Shown here piece by piece: positions 1 to 53,891 of a stretch of 54,066 nt of DNA. The stretch is from assembly GCA_015522635.1 (NCBI GenBank), contig WALW01000008.1, positions 1-54,066 on the forward strand. The letters are read 5' to 3'. Every line of letters begins with the position of its first letter. Positions within the stretch are counted from its first letter, which is position 1. The stretch comes from Candidatus Tiamatella incendiivivens (GTDB lineage Archaea; Thermoproteota; Thermoprotei_A; Sulfolobales; Acidilobaceae). A program made the position numbers and the translations under genes. The notes under the pieces are model-generated. The model saw nothing but the letters and a program-made list of their open reading frames with translations, had not been told where the DNA came from and did not search any database.

Positions 1-98
1 ATGTCTGGTCCCCCCGCTGCTCCGTTTAGTTTTGGCTGTTTTTTGAGTTGGTTTGTCAGTGCTTCTATTGGTGATAGGTAGAGTTTTCTCTTTATCAA
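1..98 (-). CDS. possible N-terminal part of an unknown gene running off the left edge
   Basis: An open frame of 32 codons runs leftwards off the window from a TTG at 98-96. It starts with residues MIKRKLYLSPIEAL and shares the A-rich codon style of the neighbouring NurA gene, from which it diverges. No clear ribosome binding site precedes it and no family is recognised. It may be a genuine gene start or chance open frame; the missing left flank would decide. Confidence 0.2.
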   Translation of the reverse strand, partial: MIKRKLYLSPIEALTNQLKKQPKLNGAAGGPD

Positions 99-254
99 TA
101 TGGGTCCCAGAGTTTAATTGTCTCTGATCGTGGCTTTATTGTCTATCGCCTGTTGAATAGTTTCGGTGAGGCGTGTAAGATAGTTTTGTTCCATAACTAC
201 TTGATCTTTCAACCATAGAAGTCAACAGTTAGCCAGTTATCCTAAATGTTAGGC

Positions 255-318
255 AGAGGGTTATATTTTTAACCCTCTACTGCAATATAAAACATAGGGT
301 AATACCCAAGGTAATACT
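255..318 (+). promoter_or_regulatory. promoter and inverted repeats upstream of nurA-herA
   Basis: A 9-bp perfect inverted repeat (AGAGGGTTA, 6-nt spacer, TAACCCTCT) lies at 255-278. An AT-rich TATA-like element, AATATAAAA, follows at about 284-292. A compact palindrome GGGTAATACCC then lies at 297-307, and its half GGTAATAC is repeated directly at 311-318. The palindrome sits between the putative TATA box and the nurA start at 346, where a repressor could block initiation. The pairing is visible in the sequence; the regulatory role is inference. Confidence 0.45.
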
Positions 319-345
319 TCCACACTCCCCTGGGGGGCTGTAGAA

Positions 346-1563
346 TTGGACCTGCAGAGAATAAGGGTGACAATAACAAAGATAACCAGCGGCACACCGA
401 GAATCAAACTAATCAAACAAGCAAGAATAGACTACTACATAATAGACGATCAGCCGCAAGGACCAACAAAGCTAATAGAACACAACCACCCTATACAGCC
501 AGTAAACCCCCCAGGGGAAACAAAAGACAAACACCTCATAATAGGACTGGACAGTAGTAGCTCAATAATCCGTACACCATTCTTCAACTTAATAACAATA
601 ACAGCCTCAGCCAGCAGCACACTAATACCGGAAGTATACGACCACCCAGAAATATACACATACCAAATCAAGCCAAGAATCAGGCAACCATACATCATAG
701 TAGGCACAGACACAGAGCTTCCCGAGGAAGGAGAAGGCGTAACGACGAGGAACCCGCTAGGATCACCATACGGGTTCAAATACACACCGGAAAGAATAGC
801 AGACGAGTACAGGTCGTGGATAGAGAACTGGATGCTCTCAGACCCAATCCACCAAGCAACCCGGAAACTAGAAAAACAAAACTACAAGCCGATAATCCTC
901 CTAGACGGCCCCTTATACCAGACACCCCAACTCATAGCAAAAATGCACCTAACAGGTGAAGCGTCAAGCATATGGAGGAGAATAGTAGAAGATAGAATAA
1001 ACCTAATCCAGGCATACGAAGATATAGGCATACCGGTCATAGGAGTCGTGAAAAGACTAGAGCAAAGCACAATCCTATCACACTCACAACACTACTCTAA
1101 ACTAGTCAAAGGCCACTGCGGTGTAGACCTCTCCTACTATAGTCCTCCAGGAGACCAAGCACTAATACATCTACTCTTAAACCTTGGAAAATGCAGATAC
1201 CATATCGGGGAAATGATGCGTACATCCATACTAGAATATACTCCAGGGGGATACGGTTTACCTAAGCTGTTCACATACATAGTAATCCCCCCGTCAATAT
1301 GGAGCAAACGTGTAAGCAGCTACCGTAGCTACCGTATAGAGTTCACACGAAAAACAATGAGCATACTGAACGGGATGAATCTAACACCGTGTCAAGTCAT
1401 ATACCTCGAGACAGTAAGGCACGCACTACCAATACCCTTCTCAATAAAACTCAGCGACAGAAGAGCAGGAATGCTGGCACAAGCCCTACGGAGCAAGTTC
1501 AGGCGAATGCTCTCAGGGATGAATGTACCCTTCACCTATGATGAACTAACCTACCAGAGGTGA
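346..1563 (+). CDS. nurA: NurA-family nuclease
   Basis: This 405-aa protein fits the NurA family, the Mn-dependent 5'-3' nuclease that partners the HerA motor in archaeal DNA end resection. Acidic motifs typical of the family are visible: GLDSSSS with Asp about 69, and LLDGPL with Asp about 187. The TTG start follows a G-rich stretch at 332-337. It overlaps the next gene through GTGA, so the two are translationally coupled. Mre11 and Rad50, which accompany NurA-HerA in many archaeal operons, are absent here. Codons favour A and C on the coding strand, unlike the genes to the right, which suggests separate ancestry. Length is within the usual range for NurA. Confidence 0.8.
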   Translation: MDLQRIRVTITKITSGTPRIKLIKQARIDYYIIDDQPQGPTKLIEHNHPIQPVNPPGETKDKHLIIGLDSSSSIIRTPFFNLITITASASSTLIPEVYDHPEIYTYQIKPRIRQPYIIVGTDTELPEEGEGVTTRNPLGSPYGFKYTPERIADEYRSWIENWMLSDPIHQATRKLEKQNYKPIILLDGPLYQTPQLIAKMHLTGEASSIWRRIVEDRINLIQAYEDIGIPVIGVVKRLEQSTILSHSQHYSKLVKGHCGVDLSYYSPPGDQALIHLLLNLGKCRYHIGEMMRTSILEYTPGGYGLPKLFTYIVIPPSIWSKRVSSYRSYRIEFTRKTMSILNGMNLTPCQVIYLETVRHALPIPFSIKLSDRRAGMLAQALRSKFRRMLSGMNVPFTYDELTYQR

Positions 1564-1568
1564 CCCGT

Positions 1569-3692
1569 ATGGTTGAGAAAGAACAATACATAGATACGGG
1601 ACAAGGAAAAGACTTGATAGACCTGCAGAGAGTCCTTGAAGAGAAAACTAGGCGGGCAGTAGATGCCGCTTTAAAGTACGGGGCAATAGTAGGCTATGTA
1701 TCTCGGTACAGTCCTGTAGAGGTGGACATGAGCAATGCTACAGTAGCATTCGACATAGACCCCTCAATATACTTCTCCCGGCTAAACGATCCCTCAAACC
1801 CCCTCTACCGGATGGGCAGTATACTAGCTGTAATAGACCCCAAAACGCAACACCTAGTATCAGTCCGCATCAAAGAAATCCGTAGACTAGACGAGCTAGC
1901 CAGCCTTGGAGTAGAAGAACCTCTCTCAACCCCACTAAACCCCGACACGTCCACACTCATGACGAGGACAAAGATAATTGGAGAAATACTCTTGGAATAT
2001 GATCCCAAAACGGAAGCAGCCTTCCCATCTAACCTCAGCATAGAACCGCAGAGCCCAGTAATAGATCCGCAGCCAGATGTACTAGTCAAACTACTAGGAC
2101 TACCCAGCCTCGGGGAAGGCGTCATAATAGGATCACTATCATTCAATTCAATACTAGTCAAAAATGGTAGCATACCGGTAGTCCTACCATACAAAGTAAT
2201 GCTTCAACACACCCTAATACTAGGAACGACAGGGAGTGGGAAAACTACACTAGTCAAGAACATGATAGCGAACACTGTCAGCAACCAGACGGGCATAATC
2301 GTAGTCGTATTCGACCTAAACCAAGACTACATACAACTACTACTCCCACCCATAAAACATCCGGAACAAGGATCGGAGAGCCGAGTATACCATGGAGTCT
2401 ACAAGGACACACGTGAGCCAGATAACATAATAATCATAGCACCAATCTCAAGGGAGATAGTTGGCAGAAACTTATACCCTGATGGGGATAATTTATTCCG
2501 CGGAATATTCAGGGAGTACTTTGAAGACAGCTATACACCACTCCTCACACTCCTAGGCCAAGAACATGTTCAAGGCAGGATAGAAGAGGGAAAGCACAGC
2601 CTCACCTATACATTCAAACTCAACGGGGGTACCAAAAGAATAATATTCATACCATACAGCCTATACACGCATAGAATCCCCGGAGACACCCTAGTAAACC
2701 TGATGCCAGGCCTCACAGGCCAAGCGAGAAACATACTTAGAAGGCTGAAGAGGAAGGTAGAATCAGAACTACCAATAGGATCACCTCCCCCATTCCTCGA
2801 CCTATACGTAGAATCCATAAGAGTATACCTGGAGGACACGCGTAAGAAAGACAACCCCTGCGCGTCAAGAAGCCAGGAAACCTGGTTCACGAAAAGAGTC
2901 CTAGAAAACATAGCCGCAAGACTATCAGGCGACTACATACGCTTAGAAGAGAACATGGACCTCCTACTAAGTAACTACTATCACATACCAATAATAATCT
3001 GCCACGCACTACAGGAAATAACACCCCACCGCAGCTCCCTAGAAAACCTACTAAGAGAACTGGGCACACTACTAGACACAGGCATAGTAGACGTAATCAC
3101 AGGAGTCCACAAGGAAAAACTAGCATTCCAAATGGAACCAGACTGGATGCAACTCCTAGAGACATCAATAGCGCTAAACTCGCCAATAATAGTGGACCTA
3201 GCATGGAGCTACCGGGCAAGCAGCCTAGGAGAAAACACACACCGTGTCACGGCAATAAGGCTATTATCAACACTCCTCACCTGGAAACACGGGATGTGGA
3301 AGGAAAGAAAGCCAACACCGGAGATACACGTATACATAGACGAAGCACACCAATTCTTCCCCAATGAAACTAAAGACGAAAACACCCGTCAACTGTCAAG
3401 CATACTCAGCAGAATAGCCAGACTTGGAAGAGCGAGAGGAATAGGGCTAGTATTCGCAACCCACACACCAAGCGACCTAAACGACATAATTATACAGCTA
3501 ACAAACACTAAAATAATACTGAGAATGGATCCAGCACACCTGGAAAGACTGGACATACCCTCAGACACGAGGAGACACCTAGCACTCGCACCCCCAAGAC
3601 ACTACGCAGTAAAAAGCTACTACATACCAAACGGCCTCATAACAGGAGTAACAACCACACCAATAACATTACACTACGACACATCAGCATAG
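1569..3692 (+). CDS. herA: HerA-type hexameric ATPase/helicase
   Basis: This is a HerA/FtsK-like P-loop motor that would translocate on DNA with NurA. The N-terminal 150 or so residues resemble the HAS-barrel. Walker A (GTTGSGKT) lies near residue 220, Walker B (VYIDEAH) near 590, and an Arg-rich segment RLGRARGIG with FATH follows. At roughly 707 aa it is longer than common HerA proteins of about 500 aa, with the extra length between the Walker motifs. GTG at 1560 overlaps nurA, but GAGGTG at 1556-1561 sits 7 nt before ATG 1569, which I take as the start. The stop codon lies inside a tRNA-like sequence. The A/C-rich codon style matches nurA. Confidence 0.8.
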   Translation: MVEKEQYIDTGQGKDLIDLQRVLEEKTRRAVDAALKYGAIVGYVSRYSPVEVDMSNATVAFDIDPSIYFSRLNDPSNPLYRMGSILAVIDPKTQHLVSVRIKEIRRLDELASLGVEEPLSTPLNPDTSTLMTRTKIIGEILLEYDPKTEAAFPSNLSIEPQSPVIDPQPDVLVKLLGLPSLGEGVIIGSLSFNSILVKNGSIPVVLPYKVMLQHTLILGTTGSGKTTLVKNMIANTVSNQTGIIVVVFDLNQDYIQLLLPPIKHPEQGSESRVYHGVYKDTREPDNIIIIAPISREIVGRNLYPDGDNLFRGIFREYFEDSYTPLLTLLGQEHVQGRIEEGKHSLTYTFKLNGGTKRIIFIPYSLYTHRIPGDTLVNLMPGLTGQARNILRRLKRKVESELPIGSPPPFLDLYVESIRVYLEDTRKKDNPCASRSQETWFTKRVLENIAARLSGDYIRLEENMDLLLSNYYHIPIIICHALQEITPHRSSLENLLRELGTLLDTGIVDVITGVHKEKLAFQMEPDWMQLLETSIALNSPIIVDLAWSYRASSLGENTHRVTAIRLLSTLLTWKHGMWKERKPTPEIHVYIDEAHQFFPNETKDENTRQLSSILSRIARLGRARGIGLVFATHTPSDLNDIIIQLTNTKIILRMDPAHLERLDIPSDTRRHLALAPPRHYAVKSYYIPNGLITGVTTTPITLHYDTSA

Positions 3693-3790
3693 CTCAGTTG
3701 GTAGGGTATAGTATTATTGCCTTGATAAAAGCTAAGGCTCTTGGCAAGCCTTGGGATCACGTTAAATTGATTGGCTATGCCAGTGCTGAA
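3683..3790 (+). other. tRNA-like relic at the 3' end of herA
   Basis: Positions 3690-3704 read TAGCTCAGTTGGTAG, a perfect canonical tRNA D-arm/A-box. About 30 nt later AAGGCT (3734-3739) pairs with AGCCTT (3747-3752) across a 7-nt loop CTTGGCA, like an anticodon arm. GCATAGC (3687-3693) can pair with GCTATGC (3774-3780). No proper T-arm is present, only a weak GTTAAATTG, and the arm spacing is wrong for a working tRNA. I read it as a decayed tRNA gene or an unidentified structured RNA. The herA stop codon (3690-3692) is inside it. Confidence 0.3.
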
Positions 3791-4349: not shown

Positions 4350-6629
4350 TTATTTTATTGGTACCTTCACTGTTAGATTAAGAGGGTTGATTATTACCTT
4401 CATTATTGTTCCCTTTGGGAAGTGGTGGATTCTTACTTGTTCGCTTAAGTGTATCGGGAAGGCTGCTTCTATGTAGAGTTGGCCCCAGAAGTAGGTGGCG
4501 TTAGCGGGTTTTGTTATTATGGTGGTGTTTGGGAAGATTAGTTGGATGGTTGCTTTGTAGTTGTAGTATGGTAGTTTATATATTACGATTGATATTGCTG
4601 TGGATATTGTTGAAACGCTTCCGTCTATTTCGATGGTAATGTTATTTGCTTCGATTGCTTTGTGGAAGGGGTAGATTATTGTTGAAATGCTGTTGTTTGC
4701 TGTTTGTATGGTGAAGTTCTGGGGTGTACTATAGTTTTCTATTGGGATTGTCATGCTGAGTTTTGGAGGTAGGGTTTGCCTCATTTTATAGTAAGTGGTT
4801 AAACCCTTGTTCCACCAGTAGTTCGAGTGTGATATTATGTTTTTGGCTATTGTGTAGTTGAAATATTTACGGTAAATTATACTGGTGTCCGAGGGCTTTG
4901 ACTCGTATATGAGGGGTATGCTCCTTATCGTCTTGTTGAGTGCGGTTATGCTGCTTGGAGGCTGGAAGTCTTCGCTACTCATTTTCTTGTCGAGTATTTC
5001 TCGGAAGATTTTTACCCAGAACTCAGGGGACTGTATATCTGGTTTTCTGTAGTGATCTGGTTTATTTGTAAAGAGAGCTTCCACATATTCGCTTGGGTTA
5101 CTTGTCCATGCTATATAGTTCCCGTTGCTCCATATTATAGTGAAATTGTTTAATGCAATAGTCATTCTCTGCTTTATTAATGGTTTAAAGAGTGGTAGCC
5201 ATGGTGCCTGCAGGATTCTCGGTAGGCTTGTGAGGCTTTGAGGTATTCCCATGTAGAAATATAGCATCCATCCGTTAAGAGGGTCTGAGTAGGGGTCAGT
5301 GTACTGTAGCGGTGGCTCGATATCTGTTTCGGTCGTGTTATCCCAGTCTATTCCAGCTGCTTGAAGGTCTATTACATCGTCTATTACTACTGCCGAGTCA
5401 TTTACTCCGTCCTGGTCTACGTCAACCTTAGCGTTTACTAGGTTTAGATGGTTGTTTGATTTTATTTTTGAGGATGGGAATATGAGCAGGGATATTGAGT
5501 GGTCGAGATCATTTATCACCATGTATGCCGAATATGATGCTAGGGCGTTGGTAGCGAATAGGCTTGATGCTCTTGAGAAGTGGTTGCATACGCCTTCTCC
5601 AGCATAGTTTATTGTGAATGGTGTGTATTGGGGGGCGGATGCTGGGCCACCGTATGTGGTGTTTGCTCTCACTATTTCATTTGGGAGGAACTGTGGGTGT
5701 ACAGTGTTCAGCACCGTGTTGTCTACCCTGTAATTCCTGCTATAGTATTCCTGCGGCGTTATAGTTTCAGGTATAATGAAGTGGTATGCGAGTGCGAATA
5801 TGGGCTCCATAAGATCCCAGTATACCTCTTCTATATGGTAGAAATAGTTGCTAGTAGTGTAATTAGTGTTCTTGAAATAGGCAGGCATCTCTAGGAACAC
5901 GTAAATATTGTGTATCTGTAAACGGTCTCCTTTAGTTTCAATGCTAGTATTATAGGAGGTGAAAGCCATTCTCCACATTACCCATTTTGAGGTTGGCCTG
6001 TAGTTTAACGCCAAATCCCTTGCTATCTCATTTGCTCCTTCGAGCTGGCTATACCAGTATGTAAGAATCATTGCTATAGTGTTTTCCCAGGCTGTTGAGT
6101 TTACTATAGTGCCGTGTAGAACTATGTTGATATGATCTCCATACCGGTATGCAGTTACAATAACTCCGATGCCGTATGGGAGTCTTATCACCCCGAGTCT
6201 AACTGTTTGGTTCAGAGTTGGAGGCTCAGGGCTTTTTTTATACGTTGGGTTATGCCAGTACCCTGAGGTATAATAGAGGCATTGTTGTATGTGGTATGGC
6301 TTGGTTGCTAGTGCCGTTCCAGGAGTAAGCATCACCCACCTTATCCATTTTATATATGACTTGATTGAAGGGTCGGATGAGTTGAAGTCTTTCATCTTGG
6401 CCCATAGATTATTTGTCATCTGGTCTCCATCCAAACTGTTTATCCTACCGTTTAGAGGGGAAAGGATTATTGCTGGGCTTCTAGCGATGGGAGTGGATGT
6501 TGGAATGTGGTGATATTCACTGCTGATATTAAGAAATGCCCCTATTATATATAGTGAGCTGATAAGTACTATCCCAATAATAATTAGAGCATATATCGCG
6601 GTAAACCTGTTATTCACCTCACCCGCCAC
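4350..6629 (-). CDS. secreted, membrane-anchored transglutaminase-like protein
   Basis: A 759-aa protein with one N-terminal membrane helix (about residues 10-32), followed by a long extracellular part rich in N-X-S/T sequons, as expected for a glycosylated archaeal surface protein. In the middle, GEGVCNHFSRA, LDHSISLLIF and VVIDDVID give Cys, His and Asp in the order and spacing of the transglutaminase/papain-like triad. Between His and Asp lies DVDQDGVNDS, a Ca-binding DxDxDG-type loop. The start is GTG 6629, or the GTG four codons in. No partner gene is evident. The substrate could be peptide or protein; the assignment to the transglutaminase-like fold is inference from motifs. Confidence 0.5.
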   Translation of the reverse strand: MAGEVNNRFTAIYALIIIGIVLISSLYIIGAFLNISSEYHHIPTSTPIARSPAIILSPLNGRINSLDGDQMTNNLWAKMKDFNSSDPSIKSYIKWIRWVMLTPGTALATKPYHIQQCLYYTSGYWHNPTYKKSPEPPTLNQTVRLGVIRLPYGIGVIVTAYRYGDHINIVLHGTIVNSTAWENTIAMILTYWYSQLEGANEIARDLALNYRPTSKWVMWRMAFTSYNTSIETKGDRLQIHNIYVFLEMPAYFKNTNYTTSNYFYHIEEVYWDLMEPIFALAYHFIIPETITPQEYYSRNYRVDNTVLNTVHPQFLPNEIVRANTTYGGPASAPQYTPFTINYAGEGVCNHFSRASSLFATNALASYSAYMVINDLDHSISLLIFPSSKIKSNNHLNLVNAKVDVDQDGVNDSAVVIDDVIDLQAAGIDWDNTTETDIEPPLQYTDPYSDPLNGWMLYFYMGIPQSLTSLPRILQAPWLPLFKPLIKQRMTIALNNFTIIWSNGNYIAWTSNPSEYVEALFTNKPDHYRKPDIQSPEFWVKIFREILDKKMSSEDFQPPSSITALNKTIRSIPLIYESKPSDTSIIYRKYFNYTIAKNIISHSNYWWNKGLTTYYKMRQTLPPKLSMTIPIENYSTPQNFTIQTANNSISTIIYPFHKAIEANNITIEIDGSVSTISTAISIVIYKLPYYNYKATIQLIFPNTTIITKPANATYFWGQLYIEAAFPIHLSEQVRIHHFPKGTIMKVIINPLNLTVKVPIK

Positions 6630-6905: not shown

Positions 6906-7406
6906 ATGTATCGGATTGAAATGGTGTTCGAACTGGATGGGCCTTGTAGGGTTGAGGGATGGATTAAGAATAAAGGGTTAAACTGGAGGCTCCACAAGCT
7001 TAATTCTAGGGTTAAAACTGTTGCAGAAGCCGCGTATGCTCTTAGTGTAGATGAGGGAAGTATAGTTAAAACCGTTGTAATAAAATGCGGCGACTTGTTC
7101 TATGCATGCATCTTACGAGGAGATACTAGGCTTGATCTTAATAAAATCTCTATTATACTCCATTGCAAGCCTCGACTCGCCAAGCCAAGGGAAGTCGAGG
7201 AAGTCACGGGCTATAGTATTGGGGGCGTTCCACCTGCACCTTTGCCATCAAGTGTGGGAATATTAGTTGACATTAGAGCTGCAGAATTAAAGCAGGCTTA
7301 TGGAGGCGGGGGTGATGATTACACGCTTCTTGAATTTAGGCCGAAAGAACTTCTGGACGAAACTAATGCTGTAATAGTAGATATGGCGGCAAATTATGTT
7401 GAATGA
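6906..7406 (+). CDS. YbaK/ProX-family aminoacyl-tRNA deacylase
   Basis: A 166-aa protein of the YbaK/EbsC/ProX editing family, which hydrolyses mischarged aminoacyl-tRNAs in trans. Family features include IVKTVVIKCGD with the conserved Lys, LRGDTRLDLNK, and the glycine motif TGYSIGGVPP near residue 103. A run of glycines (YGGGGDD) and LLEFRPKEL close the domain. The ATG at 6906 gives the full N-terminus, although nearby ATG 6924 could also serve. It ends 21 bp before the convergent taw1 stop, with a T-run in the gap. Substrate specificity cannot be read from the sequence. Confidence 0.75.
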   Translation: MYRIEMVFELDGPCRVEGWIKNKGLNWRLHKLNSRVKTVAEAAYALSVDEGSIVKTVVIKCGDLFYACILRGDTRLDLNKISIILHCKPRLAKPREVEEVTGYSIGGVPPAPLPSSVGILVDIRAAELKQAYGGGGDDYTLLEFRPKELLDETNAVIVDMAANYVE

Positions 7407-10123: not shown

Positions 10124-10678
10124 TCATGTTTTGAGGAATTTGCTAACGTAGGGGCTTTCTCCCGGTGTTCTCCTCCTGAAGTGTCCTGACGGTTTTCCTG
10201 TTAGTAGTTCCTCGAACCATGCTTCATGTTCTATTTCTTCGTGGAGTATTGCTAGTGCTAGATCATATGTTCTCGGGTCTTTTCCATGTGTGTAGCTTGT
10301 TATTTCGGTGTATATCTGTACAGCGCATCTCTCTGCGTCTAGGAGCACTTTTAGAATGTTTTCTATTGTAGGGTTCTCAGGTAATTTGGCATCCATGCAT
10401 CCCGCTATTGACGCGAATTCTTTTATGTCGTTCGGTAGCTGTCCTCCGAGTTCGTATATCCTGGGTACTAGTGCTTCAAAGTGGTTTCTATCTTCGATTC
10501 TCGCGTCCTCGACTATTTCTTTGATAGTTTCTCCTTCAAGTCCGGCTGCATGGTTTCTTAGGATTGTGTAATAATAGTATGTTGCGAATTCCGCTGCGGC
10601 GGCTCTTACCAGCATGTCTAGGAGTTTATTGATGTCGATCCCCGCTTTCTCTATTAATTCAATGTTTTTTCTAGGCAT
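10124..10678 (-). CDS. DPS-like ferritin (DpsL/thioferritin type)
   Basis: A 184-aa four-helix ferritin-like protein of the archaeal DpsL type, which oxidises and stores iron using peroxide and protects DNA. Metal-ligand motifs are visible on the four helices: [29 protein letters not shown] and [12 protein letters not shown]. Two cysteines (AGCMDA and AERCA) match the Cys pair described near the ferroxidase site of DpsL. AAGGTG lies 6 nt before ATG 10678, which decides the start. It diverges from a Fur-family gene, and a 16-bp palindrome lies 19 bp upstream of the start, so iron or peroxide control is likely. Confidence 0.82.
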
Positions 10679-10696
10679 ATATAACACCTTAAAATG

Positions 10697-25831: not shown

Positions 25832-26368
25832 TTGGTTAAATTGGAAGGTACAAAATTATCGGAAAAGGACTTTAAGGCTCTCCCCGGCGTAATATACTAT
25901 AAGCCGTTCACTAGGTACAAGTTTACTGCAGGGTACGCTGTTTCAGTATTCCTAGATGGACTGAAGCAAGGGAAGATTATTGGAAGCATATGCCGGAGAT
26001 GTGGAAGAGTATACGTTCCACCGAGGAGTTATTGTGAGTATTGTCTAAAGCCAACTGACGAGTTTATCGAGCTCCCCGATAGGGGTGAGATATCTACCGC
26101 AGTAATCAGCTATATATCTGCTAAGAGAGGAAGATTAGAGAAGCCGGAATTCGTAGGTGTTATAAGGCTGGAGACTCCTGGTTATCGTGAGGGTAGCTAC
26201 GAGTTCGCAGGACTATTCCATAAGATATGCGGTGTAACAGAGGAGGATGTCAAGTCCGGCAGAGCTATCGGTATGAAAGTTAAGGCAAGATGGAAGCCTC
26301 CGGAGAAGAGAACAGGGAGCATTCTAGATATAGAGTGCTTTGAGCCTATAGGAGGTGGAGAAGAGTGA
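25832..26368 (+). CDS. DUF35 OB-fold protein with zinc ribbon
   Basis: A 178-aa protein of the DUF35 family (rubredoxin-like zinc ribbon plus OB fold), the acyl-CoA-binding partner of thiolase-like enzymes. The zinc ribbon is complete: CRRCGRVYVPPRSYCEYC with two CxxC knuckles near residue 60. The OB fold follows with AVISYISAKRG and FAGLFHKICGV. GGAGGTG precedes the TTG start. It overlaps the next DUF35 gene by GTGA, so both are made together with the two thiolase-like subunits. Confidence 0.78.
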   Translation: MVKLEGTKLSEKDFKALPGVIYYKPFTRYKFTAGYAVSVFLDGLKQGKIIGSICRRCGRVYVPPRSYCEYCLKPTDEFIELPDRGEISTAVISYISAKRGRLEKPEFVGVIRLETPGYREGSYEFAGLFHKICGVTEEDVKSGRAIGMKVKARWKPPEKRTGSILDIECFEPIGGGEE

Positions 26369-26817
26369 TCTGGAGAAGGGAGGCTAGACTAGACGTATAT
26401 AAACATATCCCCGGGTCAATGGAAGTAGACACATTCAGATACACCCCTGGCAAAGGAGGGTTGAAGCTAGCGGAAGCATTGAAAAAAGGCTGTTTAGTCG
26501 GAGAGGACTGTGGGGGATACATACAAATACCTCCGAGAGGATTCTGCCGCGATCTAAGTAAACCAAGGGAATATGTTGAGTTACCTGAGGATACATTATG
26601 GTATGTCGACTCATTCACAATAGTCTACGAAGACGGTGAACCTAAAGTAATTATATTCGCCAGACCAGAAGGTGAAAGACTAACAGGCGGACTCATTCAC
26701 AGGCTCAAACCAGGACTTCCAGTATACATAGGAATGCCAGTAAAACCGGTATTCAAACCAGAAGAAGAGAGGAAGGGAACAGTCGAGGACATAGTATATT
26801 TCGACGAATACGCATAA
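26365..26817 (+). CDS. second DUF35 OB-fold protein, degenerate zinc ribbon
   Basis: A 150-aa DUF35 paralogue. In the ribbon position it reads LVGEDCGGYIQIPPRGFCRD, retaining only single cysteines in place of the two CxxC pairs, so zinc binding is probably lost. The following OB fold (VDSFTIVYEDGEPKVIIFA, GGLIHRL) is intact. GGAGGTGG lies 8 nt before the GTG start. Having two DUF35 genes with two thiolase-like genes suggests a heteromeric complex in which one DUF35 is catalytic or channel-forming and the other structural. Confidence 0.65.
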   Translation: MIWRREARLDVYKHIPGSMEVDTFRYTPGKGGLKLAEALKKGCLVGEDCGGYIQIPPRGFCRDLSKPREYVELPEDTLWYVDSFTIVYEDGEPKVIIFARPEGERLTGGLIHRLKPGLPVYIGMPVKPVFKPEEERKGTVEDIVYFDEYA

Positions 26818-49273: not shown

Positions 49274-49474
49274 TTGTCCCGAGTGATAAGAGCTAAATAC
49301 ACTGGGGGAGTTTTGAAGCCCTTGGACGAGCTTAACTTAAACGAAGGAGAGATAGTGTCTATTATCATAGAGAAGAAGCTCCCCACCGGCATAGCAGACT
49401 TGGTAAATGAGATGAGGAAAAACACGCCTAAAACAGAGAATCCTGTAAAAGTTCTCGGGGAACTGAGGAGATGA
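49274..49474 (+). CDS. vapB: VapB-type antitoxin, DUF104 family
   Basis: A 66-aa antitoxin of the archaeal DUF104/VapB family. SRVIRAKYTGGVLKPLDELNLNEGE matches the second copy at 53207 (SKVIRVRYEKGILKPLEPIEFREGE), which fixes the start at TTG 49274 rather than the longer upstream frame. The N-terminus is the AbrB-like DNA-binding part and the tail binds the toxin. It overlaps vapC by 4 bp. Expected to neutralise the toxin and repress its own operon. Confidence 0.8.
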   Translation: MSRVIRAKYTGGVLKPLDELNLNEGEIVSIIIEKKLPTGIADLVNEMRKNTPKTENPVKVLGELRR

Positions 49475-49920
49475 TTGTAGTCGACGCCAGCGTGTTTATA
49501 GACTCCTTATTCAGCAGTAACGCTGAAAGGTATCAGAAATCCATAGACTTCCTCAAGGCAGTTGAAGGACTACCAATATATGCACCCAGAATACTCAGAG
49601 TAGAACTGGTAGCAGTGGCCCGTAGACTCGGCTACAAAGGCGAACGGAAAGAATTACTGGAAATTACGGAGAAATTGAACTTGGTTGGAGAAAATGAAAT
49701 AATCAACCTTGCAGAATACGTGGCAGACCAAATACACCCCAGGGCAGTCGACACGTATTATATAGCTACTGCAATACTCACGGGAAGCATACTCGTATCA
49801 AACGATAGACTAATGGCTGAAAACTCCGGGAAAGCCGGAATAGAAGCATACTACCTGCTCGAAGAACACGAGGCAGCCAAAGACAAACTAGGAGAACTAA
49901 AACAAAACATGCAAGATTAA
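49471..49920 (+). CDS. vapC: VapC-type PIN ribonuclease toxin
   Basis: A 149-aa PIN-domain toxin. Acidic metal ligands are visible in VVDASVFIDSLF (first Asp), PRILRVELVAVARRLG (Glu) and the late AVDTYYIATAILTGSILVSNDRLM (two Asp). The ATG is within the vapB stop region, giving translational coupling. VapC toxins cleave tRNA or rRNA. The A/C-rich codon style resembles nurA-herA and the other vapC, suggesting acquired DNA. Confidence 0.85.
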   Translation: MIVVDASVFIDSLFSSNAERYQKSIDFLKAVEGLPIYAPRILRVELVAVARRLGYKGERKELLEITEKLNLVGENEIINLAEYVADQIHPRAVDTYYIATAILTGSILVSNDRLMAENSGKAGIEAYYLLEEHEAAKDKLGELKQNMQD

Positions 49921-53206: not shown

Positions 53207-53431
53207 ATGTCCAAGGTAATCAGGGTTAGATATGAGAAGGGAATACTCAAGCCACTGGAGCCGATAGAGTTCCGGGAGGGGGAGGAGATCGTTTTGGAGG
53301 TGAAGAATCCGCCCAGTGGAAGGGGGATATGGAGGTTCTTCGGTATAATAAAGGCAAAGGATTCTGAGCCCGTAAAGGAGGAGGACTATTATGAGCACCT
53401 CTCGGAAAGAGGTCGTATTCCTAGACAGTAG
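53207..53431 (+). CDS. vapB: VapB-type antitoxin, DUF104 family
   Basis: A 74-aa DUF104 antitoxin, paralogous to the copy at 49274. SKVIRVRYEKGILKPLEPIEFREGEEIVLEV is the DNA-binding part, and a C-terminal tail (WRFFGIIKAKDSEPV, YYEHL) binds the toxin. GGTGG lies 7 nt before the ATG. It overlaps the toxin start by 41 bp. It lies between the degenerate and true tRNA-Gly copies, so it may be cargo of an integrated element. Confidence 0.82.
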   Translation: MSKVIRVRYEKGILKPLEPIEFREGEEIVLEVKNPPSGRGIWRFFGIIKAKDSEPVKEEDYYEHLSERGRIPRQ

Positions 53432-53891
53432 CGTGATACTCCACTATCTTACTGGGGATCCTCGAGCTAGAGATATCATAGAAGATACATCAAGATTAGC
53501 AGTAAACTCTATAGTTTTCAGTGAGGTATCATTCAACCTCCTAAAACTACTATACAGCGAGAAATACGGGGAATACAAATTTTACAACATGAAATCCAGG
53601 ACCACAATGCTCGACAAGGACATACTACAAGGTTACACTATACTCCAATCATTCCTGAACGAGCTCCACAAGGAAGATAGGCTCGTATACCTCCCCATAA
53701 CCCTGGAGGTAATGAGAGAAGCCAGCGAAACAGCAGTCAAATACGGACTACTCCCTAATGACGCACTGATAGCAGCAACTTGCAAGCACTATGGCATAAG
53801 CACAATCGCAACCCTAGACGAGGACTTCGAGCGAATACCTTGGCTGCAGATCGTTCCACAACACTCAAAATCCACCAAAAGAAACGCATAA
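53391..53891 (+). CDS. vapC: VapC-type PIN ribonuclease toxin
   Basis: A 166-aa PIN-domain toxin. VFLDSSVILHYLTGD carries the first catalytic Asp, SIVFSEVSFNLLKLL the Glu, and YGLLPNDALIAATCKHYGISTIATLDEDF the late Asp pair. GGAGGAGG precedes ATG 53391. Codon style is A/C-rich on the coding strand like the vapC at 49471. It ends about 125 bp before the tRNA-Gly 3' end. Confidence 0.85.
   Translation: MSTSRKEVVFLDSSVILHYLTGDPRARDIIEDTSRLAVNSIVFSEVSFNLLKLLYSEKYGEYKFYNMKSRTTMLDKDILQGYTILQSFLNELHKEDRLVYLPITLEVMREASETAVKYGLLPNDALIAATCKHYGISTIATLDEDFERIPWLQIVPQHSKSTKRNA

Follow-up and report, generated by a model that had tools for sequence, protein, structure and literature searches.

A second NurA-HerA gene pair in Candidatus Tiamatella, probably a DNA-end-processing motor-nuclease linked at family level to Mre11-Rad50

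It was in a 54,066-nucleotide stretch of Candidatus Tiamatella incendiivivens (genus Candidatus Tiamatella, Acidilobaceae), called here the window and corresponding to contig C8 of a 1.45-Mb genome in 27 contigs, that we found two overlapping genes, nurA2 and herA2, which form the second NurA-HerA set of this archaeon. A complete mre11-rad50-nurA-herA operon lies elsewhere in the same genome (C7:70524-77328), its genes named by reading-frame similarity and by matches to NurA and HerA models. As judged by sequence comparison, the second pair is not recently mobile and was passed on by descent, because trees, synteny and congeners agree on this, and in the family a 9-bp palindrome, GGTAWTACC, recurs both before nurA2 and before the canonical operon. 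We consider it reasonably probable that NurA2-HerA2 is a second DNA-end-processing motor-nuclease and that in the family it is co-controlled with Mre11-Rad50.

The NurA2 and HerA2 proteins

The two genes are as follows.

346..1563, + strand: nurA2, NurA-family nuclease of 405 amino acids (aa) with a TTG start; domain and fold match.
1560..3692, + strand: herA2, HerA-family ATPase homologue of 710 aa, with a possible alternative ATG start at 1569; domain and fold match.

Their reading frames overlap at GTGA, and the initial annotation was right in its families and coordinates, and also in describing a stand-alone pair: neither mre11 nor rad50 adjoins it, the downstream neighbours being other genes and the upstream scope being 345 bases. 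NurA2 belongs to the NurA family by its match to PF09376 (44.5 bits, E 1.8e-11, cut-off 21), while HerA2 matches the HerA-like families PF01935 (E 2.8e-12) and PF05872 (E 6.6e-09), with both DUF87 (47.7 bits, cut-off 23.2) and HerA_C (35.4 bits, cut-off 22) above their cut-offs. The single-chain structure models agree with this. The HerA2 model (predicted local distance difference test, pLDDT, 87) matches solved HerA structures over residues 42-706 with Z of 25-27, the values being 27.3 for D. radiodurans HerA (root-mean-square deviation, rmsd, 4.1 A over 503 aligned residues) and 25.7 for the T. kodakarensis and S. solfataricus proteins. The NurA2 model (pLDDT 83) matches T. kodakarensis NurA with Z 17.5 (rmsd 3.5 A, 262 residues aligned) and S. 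solfataricus NurA with Z 17.0. The Walker motifs of HerA2 are intact, with G222-K228-T229 of Walker A and D594-E595 conserved in 33 alignment rows, and the acidic residues D69, E160 and D187 of NurA2 are invariant in the alignments. A NurA-docked DNA pump is thus the machine to be expected from the models, and its assembly and activity would follow those of its solved relatives.

Relation to the canonical operon

The canonical pair also being present, nurA2-herA2 is not the only NurA-HerA pair of the organism, and a genome search bore out the proposal of a second set. The protein called unusually long is so indeed, with 710 aa against 512 aa in the canonical HerA of the same genome, and the two are distant from each other: they share 34% identity over 73 residues only, a profile of the HerA2 paralogue family gives the canonical HerA 44 bits versus 815 for the window protein, and HerA2 falls far under the cut-offs of the NCBIfam HerA equivalogs (59.8 of 970 and 41.4 of 800 bits). 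With hhalign, HerA2 and canonical HerA aligned over the C-terminal ATPase part only, and no match came from aligning the NurA2 profile to the one canonical NurA sequence. Canonical HerA matches (E up to 1e-20) occur in 38 of the 48 genomes of the family and in 24 of its 25 good ones (samples defined below), and therefore nurA2-herA2 is an addition.

The two types of pair meet in a Desulfurococcaceae-type genome, where a tandem nurA2-herA2-nurA1-herA1 is found (L099:7554-13726, G072), a case which we count in support of the end-processing interpretation. A further NurA-HerA-like pair lies about 3-7 kb from nurA2-herA2 in L078 and L105.

Distribution and inheritance

By family we mean the 48 genomes bearing the window's family code, f1, and by good genomes those with completeness of 90% or more and contamination of 5% or less (25 in the family); f1 would be Acidilobaceae and f3 Desulfurococcaceae, to judge from identical or near-identical named loci. 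HerA2 matches below 1e-50 occur in 37 of the 48 and NurA2 matches up to 1e-4 likewise in 37, giving a combined 38/48, and the second pair is present in 23 of the 25 good genomes. At the order level a HerA match at 1e-6 is found in 150/214 genomes; the matches near 1e-7 may come from HerA proteins of another kind. The nearest named relative, Candidatus Tiamatella sp. (NCBI family Acidilobaceae), has 88% identity in HerA2, followed by Aeropyrum, Acidilobaceae and other Desulfurococcales metagenome-assembled genomes (MAGs).

The two genes stay together: in 36 of the 38 flanked loci that have both, nurA2 lies directly 5' of herA2 and in the same orientation. A 294-aa gene stands between them in L085:11053-12128 (G041), the sole such case among the 38, and in L108 nurA2 lies behind herA2 on the opposite strand. 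An apparently decaying herA2 copy with several in-frame stops was seen at G057:C64:5674-7557. Trees were made from 73 loci, after removal of loci lacking either gene, of duplicate HerA rows and of a single partial row, and were rooted on the Thermoproteales rows; they were compared with taxonomic labels (family and genus) rather than a species tree. The f1 (26 rows) and f3 (17 rows) sequences each form a single clade with starred support in the NurA and HerA trees alike, and the two trees have 46 of 70 splits in common, with one pair of starred splits in conflict.

The congener G051 has the same 11 gene families downstream of the pair, their order unchanged, and window positions 1-392 align with that genome at 78%; between genera the neighbours of the pair differ. 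Two window genes between the pair and this common block are missing in G051, namely one for a 759-aa protein without a Pfam match (4350-6629) and one with a tRNA-editing domain (6906-7406). Contig ends lie only a few kb from nurA2-herA2 in many MAGs (G051, G052, G022, G024, G026, G034, G045, G014), and likewise at the start of the window, and no array of clustered regularly interspaced short palindromic repeats (CRISPR) explains them.

A palindrome shared with the repair operon

The upstream region of nurA2 holds the following elements.

298..306, + strand: palindromic operator-like site GGTAATACC (family motif GGTAWTACC), exact in the window, G051 and G052.
310..318, + strand: second copy with one mismatch, GGTAATACT; all 3 species of the genus retain the tandem.
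261..294, + strand: putative AT-rich promoter-like stretch before the operator, TTATATTTTTAA and ATATAAAA, the first element being kept in the 3 species.

A tandem of such sites occurs once in this genome. Around the TATA-like stretch, at window 255-278, there is also a perfect palindrome with 9-bp arms; the arms differ in G051 and yet pair, and the palindrome is not in G052.

Across loci, GGTAATAC recurs upstream of nurA2, and its extended form is the palindrome GGTAWTACC, which mostly stands 16-70 bases 5' of the gene and as a rule directly follows a TATA-like stretch. Counting at most one mismatch in 120-base upstream regions, we found it before 23 of 29 family nurA2 genes (15 exact; 11/12 genera), before 12 of 19 canonical mre11 genes of the family (4 exact; 6/9 genera), and, among control genes with 60 or more intergenic bases, before 13 of 187 (1 exact). 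The mre11 set comprises 19 of the 21 stretches tried, one having no mre11 gene and one lacking its start. Against the controls, Fisher p is 1e-16 for nurA2 and 2e-8 for mre11, kinship not being corrected for, and among the 256 palindromes of its form GGTAWTACC ranks first in both sets and 26 in the controls. The motif was discovered on nurA2 itself, and only the independent mre11 set is a true test of it. In a looser count over 150 bases it is exact before 16 of 29 nurA2 genes versus 2 of 324 other genes, and one of these two has its intergenic region in common with nurA2.

From these counts we claim that the two NurA-HerA operons are linked, on a small scale and at the level of the family; we read the link as co-regulation, and for this species it would hold by kinship only. 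The palindrome shared with the repair operon makes DNA-end processing or recombinational repair the most likely role of NurA2-HerA2. In the mechanism that we propose, the pair would be an old paralogue of the canonical one, and Acidilobaceae, Desulfurococcaceae and related Thermoproteota would have kept its two genes as one operon passed on vertically. HerA2 would assemble into a hexamer that pumps double-stranded DNA and carries the docked NurA2 nuclease, as in the solved NurA-HerA complexes. Entering at DNA ends, this machine would degrade or resect them, and it would serve end processing or recombinational repair in a more specialised way than the canonical pair. A putative dimeric repressor would sit at the palindrome, usually just behind the TATA-like stretch of the Acidilobaceae nurA2 promoter, and could find the same palindrome before the mre11-rad50-nurA-herA operon in most genera tested. 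For the fuller proposal the balance is about even: a small DNA-break regulon of Acidilobaceae marked by GGTAWTACC, with both operons under one putative dimeric repressor and NurA2-HerA2 as a damage-induced, specialised resection or DNA-export engine.

Several observations weigh against such a role and such a control. There is no site at the canonical operon of this genome or of G051, where the best candidates have 3 and 2 mismatches, respectively, and therefore the putative co-control is seen in other genera and not in Tiamatella. Genome-wide, GGTAWTACC is at chance level, with 9-18 sites per genome against 9-26 for the reversed pattern in eight genomes, and 10 nurA2 loci from other families (6 of f3, 2 of f7, 2 of f9) showed no such site. 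Thermoproteales homologues adjoin type III CRISPR and CARF genes, so that some pairs of the wider family probably do something else, and the codon style of nurA2-herA2, described below, is unaccounted for.

A whole-genome GGTAWTACC regulon was rejected, there being no enrichment and the other exact sites inspected (all of those in G011, G012 and G007, and part of those in G000, G010, G014, G018 and G051) falling within coding sequence or ahead of a mixture of genes. A small number of sites are conserved in both Aeropyrum genomes, and the motif also stands before a conserved small gene in G000, G007 and G010 (L248:8395-9448 for G000; site at 1001 in L298 and L308), for which no Pfam family was matched; in G000 a winged-helix-looking gene 3' of the small gene is a candidate regulator. 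The damage element of Sulfolobales, as described in PMC9738581, is ANTTTC, bound by Orc1-2, and differs from GGTAWTACC. For a second crenarchaeal NurA-HerA pair or for GGTAWTACC, a literature search whose scope left most subscription journals outside turned up only Pyrobaculum work.

Codon usage

Third-position A+C reaches 0.76 in nurA2 and herA2, with T at only 0.07-0.09, against a mean of 0.496 (standard deviation 0.057, maximum 0.66) in 122 genes from eight other stretches of the genome, and their codon-usage distance is 0.61 versus at most 0.42 among 60 long genes compared. The A/C-rich style pointed out at the outset is thus truly deviant. It recurs in the congeners, G051 nurA2 having 0.70 and G052 nurA2 also 0.70 (T 0.05) at 61% protein identity, and since it is common to both, one of them so divergent, the style is old and not the trace of a recent arrival. 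In other genera the codon use of the pair is mostly ordinary, with the exception of the nurA of L081 at 0.72, and we therefore rejected it as a trait of the whole family. A likeness to the vapC genes of the right-hand island had been put forward, and the PIN genes there do share the style (0.72, 0.70), but so do the ferritin (0.74) and the 759-aa protein (0.67), and also 26365-26817. More generally, there is a T-poor, A/C-rich class of ferritin, PIN and other genes in the window (10124-10687, 26365-26817, 49471-49920, 53391-53891), and in G051 the gene that stands where the ferritin does shows this style too.

Downstream sequence

One further feature was considered behind herA2.

3687..3780, + strand: possible decayed tRNA-like stretch, doubtfully part of the locus.

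Complementary 7-mers lie at 3687-3693 and 3774-3780, and a 15-nt run at 3690-3704 is presumably similar to a tRNA D-arm; the suggested relic is the weakest part of the initial annotation. As a tRNA it was rejected: ARAGORN found none there in its standard and intron modes, the permissive pseudogene mode giving only an implausible reverse-strand call, Rfam gave nothing at the stretch even at E up to 5, and the genome search found it unique in the genome, and it is absent from the genus-mate G051.

Alternative explanations

The initial annotation had suggested that the pair may be a mobile or defence cassette of foreign origin. In favour of this are the extreme codon style, the tRNA-like stretch behind herA2, gene neighbours that differ between genera, and the structural kinship of HerA2 with HerA-type defence complexes, e.g., 8xaw and 8wld. 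We think this very improbable, although an integrase may lie beyond the contig start, 345 bp upstream. The trees follow families and genera, the pair is near-universal and keeps its locus in the genus-mate, its codon style is common to the congeners, and its promoter motif in the family is that of the repair operon, which points to repair. A tblastn search with HerA2 (NurA2 was not searched there) found no match among 50,697 phage and 72,556 plasmid records, and local matches on three viral-contig loci cover only 33-82 residues each. Foreign origin had been set against inheritance along the species tree with normal codon use, of which the first half agrees with the family and genus labels of the trees, while the codon use is not normal.

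A little less remote, although still improbable, is that nurA2-herA2 serves type III CRISPR immunity as an accessory pair in spacer acquisition or target degradation, on the pattern of nurA-csm6-herA in Thermoproteales. The best PADLOC matches are indeed the "Type III coevolved" HerA PDLC01055 for HerA2 (7.8e-48, 162 bits) and the matching NurA PDLC01056 for NurA2 (6e-09). In Caldivirga (L155) a Cmr-like gene, NurA, HerA and a CARF/Csm6-like gene stand in a row, and in another Thermoproteales locus (L158) the pair is beside a CARF/Csm6-like gene, neighbourhoods which fit the nurA-csm6-herA clusters of Pyrobaculum set out in PMC3396285. Those Thermoproteales rows, on which the tree was rooted, are a deep branch of their own. 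No CRISPR array was found in the 42 stretches examined, the finder being positive on a synthetic control, and there was no Cas10 match in this genome or its two congeners with one Cas10 model, which may miss some. Within the family, 8 of the 38 genomes that carry the pair have Cas10, as do 3 of the 10 that lack it, and there is no association. The type III assignment was thus rejected for the window pair, as sequence kin having neither array nor Cas10.

The third alternative is somewhat better placed and still unlikely, namely that NurA2-HerA2 is a donor-side engine preparing or pumping the DNA which a partner imports by its Ced pilus, like NurA-TdtA in Thermus transjugation. In Thermus, PMC5365140 describes an ICEth1 element in which a NurA is paired with the FtsK-HerA ATPase TdtA, required for DNA donation; PMC9905601 proposes NurA-HerA as the single-stranded DNA source for Ced/Ted, and unknown export ATPases are mentioned in PMC11868833. 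No Ced gene was noted in the listed flanks of the pair, which were not scanned with Ced models, and the site GGTAWTACC common to nurA2 and mre11-rad50 argues for repair instead. The identity of HerA2 with CedB, first suggested by PMC9905601, was rejected, since HerA2 reaches only 26.4 of 700 bits on the NCBIfam CedB model and 40.8 of 600 on CedD. CedB-model matches and HerA2 do not go together, family f6 having CedB-like proteins but no clear HerA2 and the CedB model matching no f1 genome, so that this distribution bears little on a donor role.

Significance

It is an unsettled question why crenarchaea maintain several such pairs, and a stable second NurA-HerA set bears on it. The promoter site common to nurA2 and Mre11-Rad50 offers a concrete, testable tie between them, and the 9-bp palindrome may serve as bait for the missing DNA-break regulator in a group with hard genetics. 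The striking codon bias is no longer to be read as a sign of recent mobility. It is this unexplained style, together with the site shared with the Mre11-Rad50 operon, that we consider worth keeping.

Comparison with known systems

The CRISPR-associated nurA-csm6-herA clusters of Pyrobaculum and other Thermoproteales (PMC3396285; PDLC01055/PDLC01056) contain a homologous pair, also inherited vertically according to that paper. Two Thermoproteales members score 493 and 675 bits on PDLC01055, versus 162 for HerA2, stand beside CARF genes, one of them also beside a Cmr-like gene, and branch apart; the window pair has neither Cas10 match nor array, and no csm6 is linked to it, csm6 not having been searched genome-wide. 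The DNA-import ATPases CedB and CedD belong to the same FtsK-HerA superfamily and occur in the same archaeal orders as HerA2, which differs from them in falling far below their equivalog cut-offs and in having no Ced gene noted nearby. In Thermus ICEth1, NurA is encoded directly before an FtsK-HerA ATPase gene and forms a second set in the cell, as it does here, but there, according to PMC5365140, the set lies in an excisable element with tRNA-derived flanking repeats and functions in DNA donation; no such element was seen around the window pair, though no search aimed at integrases was made. The canonical archaeal HerA-NurA differs from nurA2-herA2 in lying with mre11 and rad50 at a separate locus, in its shorter HerA and in its distant sequence, but it is made of the same two protein families with the same folds, with nurA directly 5' of herA, and it has a similar site, within one mismatch, before its operon in 12 of 19 family genomes.

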